From assembly GCA_013816585.1 (NCBI GenBank), contig JACDEE010000001.1, positions 139,001 to 203,000 on the forward strand: DNA of 64,000 nt, read 5' to 3'. The notes under the pieces were generated by a model, which saw only the letters and a program-made list of their open reading frames with translations, made no database searches and was not told where the DNA came from. Made by a program: the position numbers and the translations under genes. This DNA comes from Sphingosinicella sp. GTDB lineage: Bacteria > Pseudomonadota > Alphaproteobacteria > Sphingomonadales > Sphingomonadaceae. Below are positions 22,269-58,390 of this stretch, in pieces (the stretch's first letter is position 1; each line of letters begins with the position of its first letter).

Positions 22269-23039
22269 ATGCGTAAGGCGCTGATCGGTTTTTTATTGGG
22301 GGCAAGCATGGCCACGCCGATGGCCGCTTTTGCCCAGGAAAGTGAAGTGTCGGAGGCCCGCGCCGAGCGTCGTCAAACGCGGATCGAACAGCGCACCGAA
22401 CGGCGCCAGGAACGCGTCGAGGCGCGTACCGAACAACATCAGGAACGGACGGAACGGCCGCAACGCGAAGAGAGCGTTCCCGGGATCGAAGGCCGCGCCC
22501 AGACCTTTCCCGGCCATGAAGCACGCGCCAGACGGGTGATCACCGAAGCCCGCCAGGAACGGCGCGAGGATCGCACGGAACGCCGCGAGGACCGCCGCGA
22601 AGACCGTGTCGACCGCCGGCAGGACCGGCGCGAGGATCGCGTCGAGCGGCGTGACGATCGCCGCGATGTCCGGCTGGACCGGCGCGGCGACAGGCGAGAA
22701 GATCGGGCCGACCGCCGCGAACATCGGCGCGACTGGAATCGCGGCTGGCGCAACGACCGCCGCTACGACTGGCAGTCTCACCGTTATTCCAACCGCAACG
22801 CCTTCCGGCTGGGCCGCTATTATTCGCCCTATCGGAACCACGGCTATAGCCGTTTCTCGATCGGCCTGAGGCTCGGATCCGGTTTCTATTCGGATCGCTA
22901 CTGGATCAATGATCCATGGCAATATCGTCTGCCGCCGGCTTATGCCGGGACCCGCTGGGTCCGATATTATGACGACGTTCTGCTGGTGGATATGTACACC
23001 GGCGAAGTCATCGACGTCATTTACGGCTTCTTCTGGTAG
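22269..23039 (+). CDS. RcnB-like secreted protein with Arg/Asp/Glu repeats
   Basis: 256-residue exported protein. A signal peptide (about 1-22, cut after FAQ) is followed by a long, highly charged segment (about 25-165) built of repeats such as RREDR and RDDRR, then an aromatic region and a C-terminal RcnB-type domain (PWQYRLPPAYAGTRWVRYYD, then DVLLVDMYTGEVIDVI). RcnB proteins are periplasmic and linked to nickel/cobalt homeostasis; sphingomonads carry many such charged variants of unknown role. GAGGAG precedes ATG 22269, and a terminator follows. Confidence 0.85.
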   Translation: MRKALIGFLLGASMATPMAAFAQESEVSEARAERRQTRIEQRTERRQERVEARTEQHQERTERPQREESVPGIEGRAQTFPGHEARARRVITEARQERREDRTERREDRREDRVDRRQDRREDRVERRDDRRDVRLDRRGDRREDRADRREHRRDWNRGWRNDRRYDWQSHRYSNRNAFRLGRYYSPYRNHGYSRFSIGLRLGSGFYSDRYWINDPWQYRLPPAYAGTRWVRYYDDVLLVDMYTGEVIDVIYGFFW

Positions 23040-28822: not shown

Positions 28823-28860
28823 AAGTTGCCCTTTCGTTCCGCCTCCTCCATTTGGGACGG

Positions 28861-31587
28861 ATGGCGGCCTCTTTGCCTTATCCCGCGCTCTACGCAACCC
28901 ATGGCGGCATCTGGATAGCGAGTCCGGAAGGCGAAGTGCGTGGTATCGGGCGCGGCGAGGCGATCGCCCGCGCCGCCGAGACCCCACTCATCATGCTCAA
29001 CGCGCCCCTGGTCGGTCAGCGGCTCGGCTATCCCGAATTGTCGGGGCTGGACCTTCTGGAGCTGTTCGCCTTCGTTCACCCTGCGCGCTTCGCCGTGCCG
29101 ACGCCGAAGGGCCTGGCCCACGTACTGGGTCTGCAGGCGCCGGAAGATGACGGCGAATCCGCGCCATTTCTGCTTCGCGCCGCCGCTTCATTGATGGAGC
29201 GGCTGGAAGGGGATTGGCCCGAACGGGAAGGAGCCTGGACTTCGGCGCAGGCGCTCGGCCGCCTGCGCTGGTCGTGGAGCGGGGCAGTTGCGGCCCGCTT
29301 ACCCCGGCCCGAACGGGACGAGCGCTGGCTCTTTTCCAGATTGCCCGAATGGGAGGAGACGGCGCCCCGGCCGCAACCCGCCGCGGTGCGAATCGACGCG
29401 GGTTCGGCGATCGAGCGCCTCGCGCACTTTACCGGCCAGGGTGCAGAGCCGCGCCTCGGCCAACAGGATTATGCCGCGGCGGCTGCCGAAGCCTTCGCCC
29501 CCCGCCGCGCCGAAGGGCAGCCACATATATTGCTGGCGGAGGGAGGCACCGGGATCGGCAAGACGCTTGGTTATCTGGCCCCGGCTTCGCTCTGGGCGGA
29601 AAAGGCCGCAGGCACGGTCTGGGTCTCGACCTTCACCAAGGCGCTGCAGCGGCAGCTCGACCGCGAGAGCGAGCGGCTATTTCCCGATTCGGAGGAACGC
29701 AGGGCCAAGGTCGTGGTCCGGAAGGGCCGGGAAAATTATCTCTGCCTGCTGAACCTCGAAGATGCCTTGCAAGGCGGATTTGCCGGCCGCGCCGCGATCC
29801 TCGCGCAGCTTGTCGCCCGCTGGGCGGCTTATACGCGCGACGGCGACATGGTGGGCGGCGACATGCCGGGCTGGCTCCCCACCCTGTTCCGCCGCGCCGG
29901 TGCGACCGCGCTGACCGACCGGCGCGGCGAATGCGTCTATGCCGGCTGCCCGCATTACCGGAAATGCTTCATCGAGCGTTCCGGCCGGTCGAGCCAGAAT
30001 GCCGATATCGTGATCGCCAACCACGCTTTGGTCATGATCAACGCCGCGCGCGGGCGGGAAATGGGCAATGCGCCGACCCGGATCGTGTTCGACGAGGGGC
30101 ATCATCTGTTCGACGCCGCCGATTCGACCTTCGCGACGGCACTAACGGGGCAGGAGACGATCGAGCTTCGCCGCTGGCTGATTGGGCCCGAGGGCAAGGC
30201 GCGCGGAAGGCGGCGCGGGCTGGCCGCGCGGCTGATGGATGTCGCATCCTATGACGAAGCGGGCGCGCTGGCATTGGAATCGGCTGTGCGCGCCGCAGGC
30301 GCCCTACCCGGCGACGGCTGGCTTTCGCGCATCGCCGAAGGAATGCCGTTCGGCCCCATTGAAAAATTGCTCTCGGCTATTCGCGGCACGGTCTATGCGC
30401 GCGCCTCCGCTCAGGATGCGGGCTATGGGCTCGAAACCGAAATGGCGGAACTGGATACCGATATCGTCGAGGCGGCGGCCCCCGCGGTGGAGGCGATGGA
30501 GCAATTGCTTCGGCCGCTCGTCTCGCTCGGCAAGAGACTGGAAGCGGTGCTGGAAAATGCGCCCGACTGGCTCGACGCGCAGGCGCGGGCCCGGATCGAA
30601 GGCGCGATCGGCGGCCTTTCCTGGCGATGCCGAACGCTCACCGGCTGGATTGCCCTTGCCGCGCGGCTTGGAGGCCCGGCGGACCGCGATTTCGTAGACT
30701 GGCTGGGCGTCGAGCGCATCGATGGGCGCGAATATGATATCGGCCTTCACCGGCGCTGGCTCGACCCTACCAGACCCTTGGCGGAGACGGTATTGAAGCC
30801 GGCGCACGGGGTGATCGTGACTTCGGCGACGTTGCGCAACAGCGAAGGCTGGGACGCGGCCGAGGCGCGTACCGGCGCCTTGCATCTCGACTCCCCCGCG
30901 TTGCACTTCGCGGCCGAGAGTCCGTTCGATTATGCGGCCAACAGCGAAGTCCTGATCGTGACCGACCTGAAGCGCGGCGATGCGGCCCAGCTTGCCGGCG
31001 CCTATGCGCGCCTGATCGAGGCCTCGGGCGGCGGCACGCTTGGCCTGTTCACTTCCATCCAGCGGTTGAAATCGGTTCATTCGCGTCTCGCGGACCGCCT
31101 CGCCCGGGCAGGACTCCCCCTTTATGCCCAACATGTCGATCCGATCGACACCGGCACTCTGGTCGATATCTTTCGCGACGATCCGCGCGCCTCTCTCCTC
31201 GGCACCGATGCGCTTCGGGACGGGGTGGATGTGCCCGGCCATTCGCTCCGCCTGGTGGTGATGGAGGGCGTTCCCTGGCCGCGGCCGACGGTATTGCACG
31301 CGGCCCGCCGCGCGGTTGGCGGCGGCACGCTTTACGACGACCGGGTGGTCAAGGCCCGGCTGGCCCAGGCCTTCGGCCGGCTGATCCGGCGCGCGCAGGA
31401 CCGGGGGATATTCGTTCTGCTGTCATCCGCCACCCCTTCGCGATTGCTGAACGCTTTCCCAGGTGGAGTGATGGTGAGCCGAGTCCCGCTCGACGTGGCG
31501 ATAGAGCGCGTGGCGACACGTCTTTCACCCGCGCCGGCTTTCGGGCATCAGGGCGAGAGCGCTATTGCAGGCGAAGGATCTTCATGA
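28861..31587 (+). CDS. DinG/XPD-like ATP-dependent DNA helicase
   Basis: 908-residue superfamily 2 helicase. Walker A GGTGIGKT is at residues 228-235 and the DEAH-type box is DEGH at 411-414. C295, C358, C363 and C369 lie in the XPD/DinG iron-sulfur position between these motifs. The C-terminal half has ATLRN, GTDALRDGVDVPG and QAFGRLIRRAQDRG (motif VI). It probably unwinds damaged DNA or R-loops 5' to 3'. The N-terminal 200 residues are specific to an alphaproteobacterial subfamily. The stop lies in the first unit of a 17-bp tandem repeat leading into the next gene. Confidence 0.92.
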   Translation: MAASLPYPALYATHGGIWIASPEGEVRGIGRGEAIARAAETPLIMLNAPLVGQRLGYPELSGLDLLELFAFVHPARFAVPTPKGLAHVLGLQAPEDDGESAPFLLRAAASLMERLEGDWPEREGAWTSAQALGRLRWSWSGAVAARLPRPERDERWLFSRLPEWEETAPRPQPAAVRIDAGSAIERLAHFTGQGAEPRLGQQDYAAAAAEAFAPRRAEGQPHILLAEGGTGIGKTLGYLAPASLWAEKAAGTVWVSTFTKALQRQLDRESERLFPDSEERRAKVVVRKGRENYLCLLNLEDALQGGFAGRAAILAQLVARWAAYTRDGDMVGGDMPGWLPTLFRRAGATALTDRRGECVYAGCPHYRKCFIERSGRSSQNADIVIANHALVMINAARGREMGNAPTRIVFDEGHHLFDAADSTFATALTGQETIELRRWLIGPEGKARGRRRGLAARLMDVASYDEAGALALESAVRAAGALPGDGWLSRIAEGMPFGPIEKLLSAIRGTVYARASAQDAGYGLETEMAELDTDIVEAAAPAVEAMEQLLRPLVSLGKRLEAVLENAPDWLDAQARARIEGAIGGLSWRCRTLTGWIALAARLGGPADRDFVDWLGVERIDGREYDIGLHRRWLDPTRPLAETVLKPAHGVIVTSATLRNSEGWDAAEARTGALHLDSPALHFAAESPFDYAANSEVLIVTDLKRGDAAQLAGAYARLIEASGGGTLGLFTSIQRLKSVHSRLADRLARAGLPLYAQHVDPIDTGTLVDIFRDDPRASLLGTDALRDGVDVPGHSLRLVVMEGVPWPRPTVLHAARRAVGGGTLYDDRVVKARLAQAFGRLIRRAQDRGIFVLLSSATPSRLLNAFPGGVMVSRVPLDVAIERVATRLSPAPAFGHQGESAIAGEGSS

Positions 31588-31651
31588 AGATGCTGAAATT
31601 ATGAAGATGCCGAAATCATGAAGATACCGAGATCATGAAGATACTGGCATT
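31584..31651 (+). repeat. 17-bp tandem repeat forming chained mini-ORFs before sixA-like gene
   Basis: Four units with exact 17-bp period start at 31584, 31601, 31618 and 31635: ATGAAGATGCTGAAATT, ATGAAGATGCCGAAATC, ATGAAGATACCGAGATC and ATGAAGATACTGGCATT. Each of the first three units opens a six-codon ORF (MKMLKL, MKMPKS, MKIPRS) whose TGA overlaps the next unit's ATG as ATGA. The helicase stop overlaps the first ATG in the same way, and the fourth ATG is the start of the phosphatase gene. A good Shine-Dalgarno (AAGGA, 5-nt spacing) stands only before the first unit. Confidence 0.9.
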
Positions 31652-32180
31652 GCTGCGTCACGCCAAATCGACCTGGGATGATCCCGTTGCGCGTGATTTC
31701 GACCGACCCCTCAACAAAAGGGGGCAGAAAGCCGCGCGTACCGTCGGTGGGGAGATGCGTTCTCTCGGCCTTGGCTTCGATCGCGTGATCGCCTCTCCCG
31801 CTTTGCGCGTGATCGAGACGCTGGCCGATATCGAACAGAGCTACGGGAAAAATCTTGGCCAGGTCTATGACCAGCGCCTCTATCTTGCGTCGCCGGCCAC
31901 CCTGATCGACCTGATCCACGAGACCGGGGACGAGACCCAGAGCCTATTGGTCGTTGGGCATAATCCCGGGCTGGAGAGGCTCGCCATCATGCTGACGCAA
32001 GGCAGCGACGGTCCGCTTCGATCGGAGCTGGAATGCAAATATCCGACCGCGACGCTCGCCGAAATCGCACTGAAGGTGGAAAGTTGGGGCGAGGTTGCCG
32101 AAGGGACCGGAACGCTTACTCGCTTCGTCCGCCCGCGCGATCTCGATCCGGAACTCGGGCCGGACGAAGACAGCTATTGA
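31635..32180 (+). CDS. SixA-like histidine phosphatase
   Basis: 181-residue histidine phosphatase family protein with the N-terminal catalytic motif [13 protein letters not shown] (RHA variant of RHG) and the second catalytic histidine in [11 protein letters not shown]. Length is close to SixA, which dephosphorylates phosphohistidine proteins; the true substrate is unknown. The ATG at 31635 is the only start giving the full motif. Its own Shine-Dalgarno is poor, and translation may depend on reinitiation through the 17-bp repeat chain. The 3' end overlaps the convergent MerR gene by 7 bp. Confidence 0.88.
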
Positions 32181-32542
32181 GCGAGAGCGTCGGCCAGCAG
32201 GCGGCGGATAGCGCGAAGCTGCTCGACCGGAAGCCCGTCGGGCTGAACCGGCGGTAAGGGCGCCGCGGCCGGGATCGACTCCTCGCCGCCGCCGTTGCTC
32301 GACAGCAATTGCTGGACGCCGCGGATCGTATATCCGTCTTTATTGAGCAGTCGGTGGATGCGCCGGGCAAGCGCCACGTCGGCCGGCCGATAATAACGGC
32401 GATTGCCGGCGCGCTGCAGCGGCTTCAATTGCGGAAAGCGCGTTTCCCAATAACGCAGGATATGCTGAGGGACGCCCAGTTCGGCGGCCAGCTCGCTTAT
32501 CGTGCGAAAGGCCTGATCGCTCTTGCCCTGGCTGTCCGCCAT
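32174..32542 (-). CDS. MerR family transcriptional regulator
   Basis: 122-residue protein with a winged helix-turn-helix ([20 protein letters not shown] followed by ETRF, and the [15 protein letters not shown] wing). A short C-terminal part replaces a metal-binding domain. This form is the last member of the conserved rpmF-plsX-fabH-ihfA-merR order; its target genes are not established. Start ATG 32542, directly after ihfA. Confidence 0.9.
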
Positions 32543-57559: not shown

Positions 57560-58390
57560 TTACTGAACCGGCTGAAGATTCACCGCTGCCGTCTTGCCGC
57601 GGCGATCGACTTCAAGCTCGAACTCCAGACGATCGCCTTCGTTGAGGCTGACCATTCCGGCGCGTTCGACCGCCGAAATATGGACGAACGCGTCCGGCTG
57701 TCCGTCGTCGCGGCTGATGAAGCCGAAGCCCTTCATCGCGTTGAAGAACTTGACCGTGCCTGATGCCTTTTCGCCGGTCAGCTGACGCTGAGGCCCACCG
57801 GCACCACCGCCGCCACCGAAGCCGCCGCCGTCACGATCCTCGCGAGGAGCGCGATCCTCGACCGGGAGCGGATCGCCCTCGATCTTGAGGTCGGTTGCCG
57901 AAATCCGTCCGCCGCGATCCACCAGGGTGAATCCCAGCGGTTGGCCTTCGGCCAGACCGGTAAGGCCGGCTTGCTCGACAGCGGAAATGTGAACGAACAC
58001 ATCCTCGCCGCCATCGTCGCGGACGACGAAGCCGAAACCCTTTTGGGCGTTGAAGAATTTTACGACGCCTTTGCCTTCGCCAACGACCTGGGGAGGCATG
58101 CCGCCGCCGCGTGGGCCGCCGAAGCCGCCACCAGCGCCACCGCCTGCGCCACCGCCGCCGCGATAGCCGCCACCGCCGCCGCCGCCGTATGGCGCACGAT
58201 CGCCACCGCCGAAGCCGCCGCGGTCGCCATAATTGCCTCCGCCGCCGCCACCGCCATATGGCGCCCGATCGCCACCGCCGAAGCCGCCGCGATCACCAAA
58301 GCTGGGAGTGAAATTGTCCTCGCCGAAACCGTCGCGCTTGTCTCTGCCGCGCCCGCCGCGATCCCCACGGCGCCCTTTATCAAAACTCAT
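57560..58390 (-). CDS. Two-domain cold-shock protein with Gly/Arg-rich N-terminus
   Basis: 276-residue RNA-binding protein. Two cold-shock domains are visible (about 103-168 and 206-273), each with RNP1-like (KGFGFV/KGFGFI) and RNP2-like (DVFVHI/DAFVHI) motifs. The first 100 residues are a Gly/Arg/Asp-rich low-complexity region with a 23-residue repeat (32-54 and 55-77). Double-CSD proteins are typical of alphaproteobacteria; the RGG-like leader suggests RNA chaperone or condensate behaviour. The long 195-bp upstream region may hold a cold-responsive leader. Confidence 0.92.
   Translation of the reverse strand: MSFDKGRRGDRGGRGRDKRDGFGEDNFTPSFGDRGGFGGGDRAPYGGGGGGGNYGDRGGFGGGDRAPYGGGGGGGYRGGGGAGGGAGGGFGGPRGGGMPPQVVGEGKGVVKFFNAQKGFGFVVRDDGGEDVFVHISAVEQAGLTGLAEGQPLGFTLVDRGGRISATDLKIEGDPLPVEDRAPREDRDGGGFGGGGGAGGPQRQLTGEKASGTVKFFNAMKGFGFISRDDGQPDAFVHISAVERAGMVSLNEGDRLEFELEVDRRGKTAAVNLQPVQ
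58160..58297 (-). repeat. 69-bp direct repeat inside the cold-shock gene
   Basis: Two tandem 69-bp units encode GDRGGFGGGDRAPY plus a Gly7 run. They lie in the low-complexity leader and should be prone to copy-number change. Confidence 0.8.

Follow-up and report, generated by a model that had tools for sequence, protein, structure and literature searches.

The junction between a DinG/YoaA-like helicase gene and a SixA-like histidine phosphatase gene in the window (the whole stretch of DNA analysed, 64,000 nucleotides) is occupied by a short tandem array, and the locus raises the question of how such an array came about and by which route ribosomes would reach the phosphatase behind it. On re-reading, the junction agrees with its description in the first-pass annotation: there are four 17-bp units at exact period, hexapeptide ORFs in the first three, chained TGA/ATG overlaps, a helicase stop that overlaps the first ATG and a fourth ATG that is the start of the phosphatase (Table 1). 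The helicase stop TGA (31585-31587) sits within the first ATGA of the array, and the stop/start overlap read from the sequence is −4 nt at all four junctions. The period is exact and the units are non-identical, with 15/17, 15/17 and 13/17 identical positions between adjacent units, 12 to 15 of 17 positions in common for any unit pair, and 12-14/17 matching positions when the phosphatase start is compared to units 1-3. A rough binomial estimate puts the chance of 43/51 matches at about 7e-11 after multiplication by 64000 (positions) and 100 (periods), and in the output of Tandem Repeats Finder the array spans 31582-31644 with 3.7 copies and a score of 91. An assembly artefact is unlikely, since the four units vary at 5/17 positions. 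The array is also the only occurrence in its own genome of the three-ATGA pattern with 17-nt period, and a 451-base DNA query gave a single match there.

Table 1. Features at the helicase-phosphatase junction, in window coordinates.
Feature	Position	Strand	Remarks
DinG/YoaA-like helicase gene	28846-31587	+	28846 is where translation was begun, not an assigned start; ORF and PF13307
Shine-Dalgarno-like AAGGA	31574-31578	+	5 nt ahead of first ATG; duplex energy −6.0
14-bp perfect palindrome ATCTTCATGAAGAT	31578-31591	+	Surrounds first ATG
Unit 1	31584-31600	+	17 bp, read from sequence
Unit 2	31601-31617	+	17 bp, read from sequence
Unit 3	31618-31634	+	17 bp, read from sequence
Unit 4, first 17 nt of phosphatase gene	31635-31651	+	Read from sequence
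Mini-ORF MKMLKL-stop (unit 1)	31584-31604	+	Its TGA overlaps unit 2 ATG
Mini-ORF MKMPKS-stop (unit 2)	31601-31621	+	Its TGA overlaps unit 3 ATG
Mini-ORF MKIPRS-stop (unit 3)	31618-31638	+	Its TGA overlaps phosphatase ATG
SixA-like histidine phosphatase gene, 181 aa	31635-32180	+	ORF and PF00300

The names given to the two flanking genes are resemblances and not family assignments. The helicase matches PF13307 (Helicase_C_2) with an E value of 6.7e-20 and the YoaA and DinG models below their curated cut-offs, while the phosphatase matches PF00300 (His_Phos_1) with an E value of 3e-08 and TIGR00249 (sixA) with 1.4e-13, the latter below cut-off. The Met at 31635 is where the phosphatase homologues of relatives start to align. 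The ratio of phosphatase to helicase divergence (median 2.51 here, rank 13 of 22, range 1.78-3.22) gives no sign of relaxed constraint on the phosphatase, and a protein that diverges at an ordinary rate is presumably still produced and in use. The end of the phosphatase gene is overlapped convergently by a minus-strand ORF (32174-32542), which we take to be MerR-like, and the further minus-strand ORFs beyond it are presumably integration host factor-, FabH- and PlsX-like. Repeats of other kinds were seen elsewhere in the window, namely GCC-rich imperfect arrays at 58100-58298 (periods 3, 21, 24, 33 and 69), which might, at a guess, encode a glycine-rich repeat on the minus strand, and imperfect overlapping arrays, CGC- and GAC-rich, at 22556-22733 (periods 12, 21 and 33, each divisible by three), which we would guess to be perhaps an Arg/Asp-rich protein repeat.

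The state of the junction in relatives bears on the origin of the array. The collections used hold one genome per species, and the phosphatase has a match in all 26 genus genomes searched (26/26, own genome included). The 25 others were compared; two were left out of the junction count, L021 with just 70 bases ahead of the start at a contig end and L042 with undetermined bases, leaving 23 informative relatives. A direct −4 overlap of helicase and phosphatase is kept in 20/23, which supports the earlier proposal that an ancestral ATGA overlap between the two genes had grown by tandem duplication. The three exceptions have spacings of −47 (L020), +19 (L031) and +7 (L037), and their occurrence implies that tight coupling is dispensable in the genus. 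One of the 20 relatives with the overlap, L039, has its helicase read in two frames, and the overlap at the end of the C-terminal part reads GTGA; the frame change, at about 1260, is either real or an error in a small contig. A repeat array was sought in the 90 nt before the phosphatase start of the 23 informative relatives and was found in none of them (0/23). In the family, a start pattern (the phosphatase start with a further ATGA 3-33 nt upstream) matched 29/397 genomes, a figure that counts pattern matches and not gene carriage, as phosphatases with divergent starts are missed, and among the 31 pattern matches listed from these 397 genomes a repeated unit occurred in the own genome only. 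The array is therefore derived and, within the genomes searched, private to one of them, and these comparisons give good support to an origin in which the opening 17 nt of the phosphatase gene were duplicated in tandem.

The regularity of the chain is a matter of arithmetic. In a unit that starts with ATGA and is 17 nt long (2 mod 3), the codon after the sixth residue is made up of positions 2-4 of the next unit and therefore reads TGA, so that the −4 overlaps follow from the unit length and the first four bases, and design is not needed. By the same arithmetic the chain survives at every copy number, as the first-pass annotation had maintained. A unit of 0 mod 3 would yield an in-frame N-terminal extension, and with a length of 1 mod 3 only alternate units would be coupled. 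This gives a simple rule, that duplication at an ATGA junction keeps the −4 linkage for units of 2 mod 3 length in which no further in-frame stop occurs.

Chains of this kind recur in viral contigs, where we searched for four-ATGA patterns, with ATGAR at the first three positions, at the coupling periods 17, 14 and 20 (30, 103 and 49 matched stretches, respectively) and at the non-coupling periods 16, 13 and 19 (73, 60 and 30). For period 14, 80 of the 103 matches were analysed. Distinct tandem arrays with a mean adjacent identity of at least 0.6 were kept, and those with flanking ORFs of at least 50 aa on both sides were counted as lying at a gene junction. Gene-junction arrays amounted to 4/127 for coupling and 1/119 for non-coupling periods (Fisher p 0.37, with period 14 drawn from 80 of 103 matches), which shows no significant enrichment, and the pattern fits recurrent, tolerated slippage. 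In L101:139-937 (minus strand), four identical 17-bp units (MRTSTI and stop), all with ATGA overlaps, stand between ORFs of 139 and 105 aa; these ORFs have no match in Pfam or PHROGs, and a blastn comparison of the region to the phage collection likewise found nothing. L435 carries a relative of the upstream ORF (49% over residues 30-139) that terminates in a plain ATGA overlap, and no match is seen between the ORFs that follow the junction in these two contigs. L235:2417-3105 (minus strand) has three 14-bp ATGA-coupled units (MSLPK and stop) ahead of a small DUF3309-like ORF (E 0.0015, below the Pfam cut-off). Two of the four junction arrays are those of L300, where the upstream ORF matches a head scaffolding family and the downstream ORF has no match, and of L262, where neither ORF matches Pfam; no weight is placed on these two. 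The chains in L101 and L235 are ATGA-coupled like the present array, but the genes and units differ, and they are therefore presumably events independent of it.

The AAGGA motif ahead of unit 1 is, judged from where it lies, the site that served the phosphatase gene ancestrally, and relatives show comparable energies. Duplex energies, computed with an assumed 16S tail that was not taken from this genome, are −6.0 kcal/mol before unit 1, −1.4 kcal/mol before both unit 2 and unit 3, and −3.0 kcal/mol at very short spacing before the phosphatase, in line with the earlier statement that the only good Shine-Dalgarno stands before unit 1. In the 22 relatives of the energy comparison (the start of L025 was not found, and L021 and L042 were excluded), the median before the phosphatase start is −5.9 kcal/mol, with 20/22 at −3.0 or stronger, spacing not being weighed in this comparison. 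The ancestral Shine-Dalgarno is now 51 nt further upstream of the phosphatase. A search for a sigma-70-type promoter at 31200-32300 found none, other promoter types being possible.

The start of unit 1 is predicted to be the least accessible of the four. Its AUG is predicted to be almost wholly paired (0.03-0.04 unpaired), and the predicted unpaired fraction over −10..+5 is 0.23-0.30 at unit 1, compared to 0.43-0.56 at units 2 and 3 and 0.50-0.59 at the phosphatase start. Translation of the helicase would open the paired start of unit 1. The predicted fold pairs later units with the palindrome at the first ATG and is, as a whole, within chance. RNA structure was considered as the purpose of the repeat and was rejected, the segment 31554-31680 being no stabler than shuffled sequences (z −0.70; 50/200 as stable).

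Overall, the array is a duplication product, and our data lean somewhat towards a reading in which the phosphatase is reached serially via the mini-ORFs; the arrangement is most likely a tolerated by-product of slippage and not a selected switch. The junction was ancestrally an ATGA overlap, and the duplication put three extra six-codon ORFs between helicase and phosphatase. Unit 1 would be started by the ribosome that ends the helicase, or by one loaded at the ancestral Shine-Dalgarno, and three further steps of termination and reinitiation would follow before the phosphatase is reached. The phosphatase output would be lowered by the product of the three reinitiation yields, and would still exceed that across an untranslated gap of 47 nt. 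Six-codon ORFs may also shed ribosomes by peptidyl-tRNA drop-off.

The E. coli literature gives mixed indications of how well such a chain would perform. In PMC10666635 reinitiation is down 40-80% at a spacing of +14 nt and (almost) wholly lost at +38 nt; for reinitiation to occur, the final 15 nt of the upstream gene are enough. Contrary E. coli studies, as cited in PMC12548453, saw spacings from −4 to +25 nt make no difference, or saw coupling at +50 nt and more. The case for the chain is weakened a little by these conflicting spacing studies together with the buried start of unit 1, and the chain is disfavoured by the want of a good Shine-Dalgarno at units 2 and 3 and the phosphatase, given that removal of the Shine-Dalgarno cut reinitiation substantially in 4/5 E. 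coli pairs (PMC6728339). On balance, the mini-ORF chain would seem a better path than scanning of the 47-nt gap, and serial termination-reinitiation is in our view a plausible and, by a modest preference, the likeliest route to the phosphatase.

The residual −3.0 kcal/mol site ahead of 31635, and an unpaired fraction there that is similar to the values at units 2 and 3 and higher than the value at unit 1, would also suit a phosphatase that is initiated independently at 31635, by its weak Shine-Dalgarno, an A-rich context or a transcript of its own, with the mini-ORFs as an inert spacer. Such an initiation has a parallel in bioF, the one of five overlapping E. coli pairs that began de novo despite a very weak Shine-Dalgarno (PMC6728339), and agrees with the spacing other than −4 in 3/23 relatives. 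However, the site at 31635 is weaker than that in 20/22 relatives, and no promoter-like site of sigma-70 type was found in the region searched around it, which makes an independent start doubtful, even if it deserves attention. Readthrough of the unit-1 UGA would lengthen the phosphatase by 17 residues at its N-terminus: the starts of unit 1 and of the phosphatase, 51 nt apart, share a reading frame with one in-frame UGA between them, and from 31605 onwards frame 0 runs into the phosphatase without a stop. The shared frame arises only when the copy number is divisible by three, ten open codons would be met by chance in most cases (0.62, hand estimate), and the homologues align from the Met of 31635, so that we regard readthrough as very improbable.

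A selected attenuator tunable by copy number was also considered, in which slippage alters the number of reinitiation steps and sets the phosphatase level in subpopulations. Here a fixed yield per six-codon ORF would be multiplied along the series, giving graded steps of phosphatase output in which the frame is never broken, unlike on/off phase variation. The ATGA is kept in all four units though 5/17 positions vary, the chain is intact whatever the copy number, and a precedent exists in Mtb-fpg1, where longer upstream MIRU-VNTR repeats went with a higher mRNA level (PMC2734929). That effect, however, is one on the transcript and of the opposite sign, longer repeats going with higher expression (PMC2734929), and, given so few changes, the conservation of ATGA is non-significant (about 0.2, hand estimate). 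Divergence between repeat units should lower slippage, and the divergence seen here argues against frequent recent slippage. The array is moreover present in one genome only among those searched, and the viral contigs show no significant favouring of coupling periods at gene junctions. We thus give little credence to a selected tunable element, and a serial attenuator with graded output is equally improbable. A chance by-product is more likely than a switch, and the array is probably ordinary mutational debris, with the serial route as our preferred account of how the phosphatase is reached.

The first-pass annotation knew of no described control element with this design, a view that does not stand beside the MIRUs of mycobacteria, which place mini-ORFs at start codons with −4 coupling (PMC12548453). 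MIRUs are described there as repeats that insert at start codons, their internal ORF being coupled to the gene with −4 spacing, and that appear mobile (PMC12548453). They are 40-100 bp long, dispersed over 41 loci in H37Rv and polymorphic in copy number at 12 loci (PMC2734929). The senX3-regX3 junction holds three 77-bp MIRUs in H37Rv, and two of 77 bp and one of 53 bp in CDC1551, and the MIRUs between these genes are able to drive transcription (PMC4213456). In the present array, too, the unit holds a mini-ORF and stands at a start codon with −4 coupling, and the senX3-regX3 MIRUs, like our units, are tandem copies between two operon genes (PMC4213456). In contrast to MIRUs, however, the unit is 17 bp long and a copy of the gene's own start, the array is found once in its own genome and in 0/23 relatives instead of being dispersed at many loci, and the promoter-like site that would match the transcriptional activity of the senX3-regX3 MIRUs was not found (sigma-70-type, 31200-32300). 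The array thus resembles a miniature MIRU tandem but fails the features of unit size and dispersal.

Very short ORFs are also known to act on the gene that follows, as with the two-codon minigene of axe-txe, which modulates the next gene (PMC8708949), and the short ORFs used in biotechnology to deliver ribosomes to the next gene (PMC12548453). These are single mini-ORFs, whereas the present array is a tandem chain from the gene's own start; for a chain so built, no report was found in the open-licence literature searched. The locus offers a naturally occurring series of similar reinitiation steps from one gene to the next, relatives still have its one-step ancestor, and it would make a ready test of the share of ribosome flow that survives each stop-restart and of the tolerance of tandem duplication at ATGA junctions. 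Close kin of the array are also the ATGA (−4) coupled pairs, whose type of overlap both the ancestral and the present junctions show and for which termination-reinitiation is treated in PMC6728339 and PMC10666635. Those studies concern one step between two genes, whereas the present array has four successive overlaps, and the structural novelty at this one operon junction is real, as a natural variant of known translational coupling.
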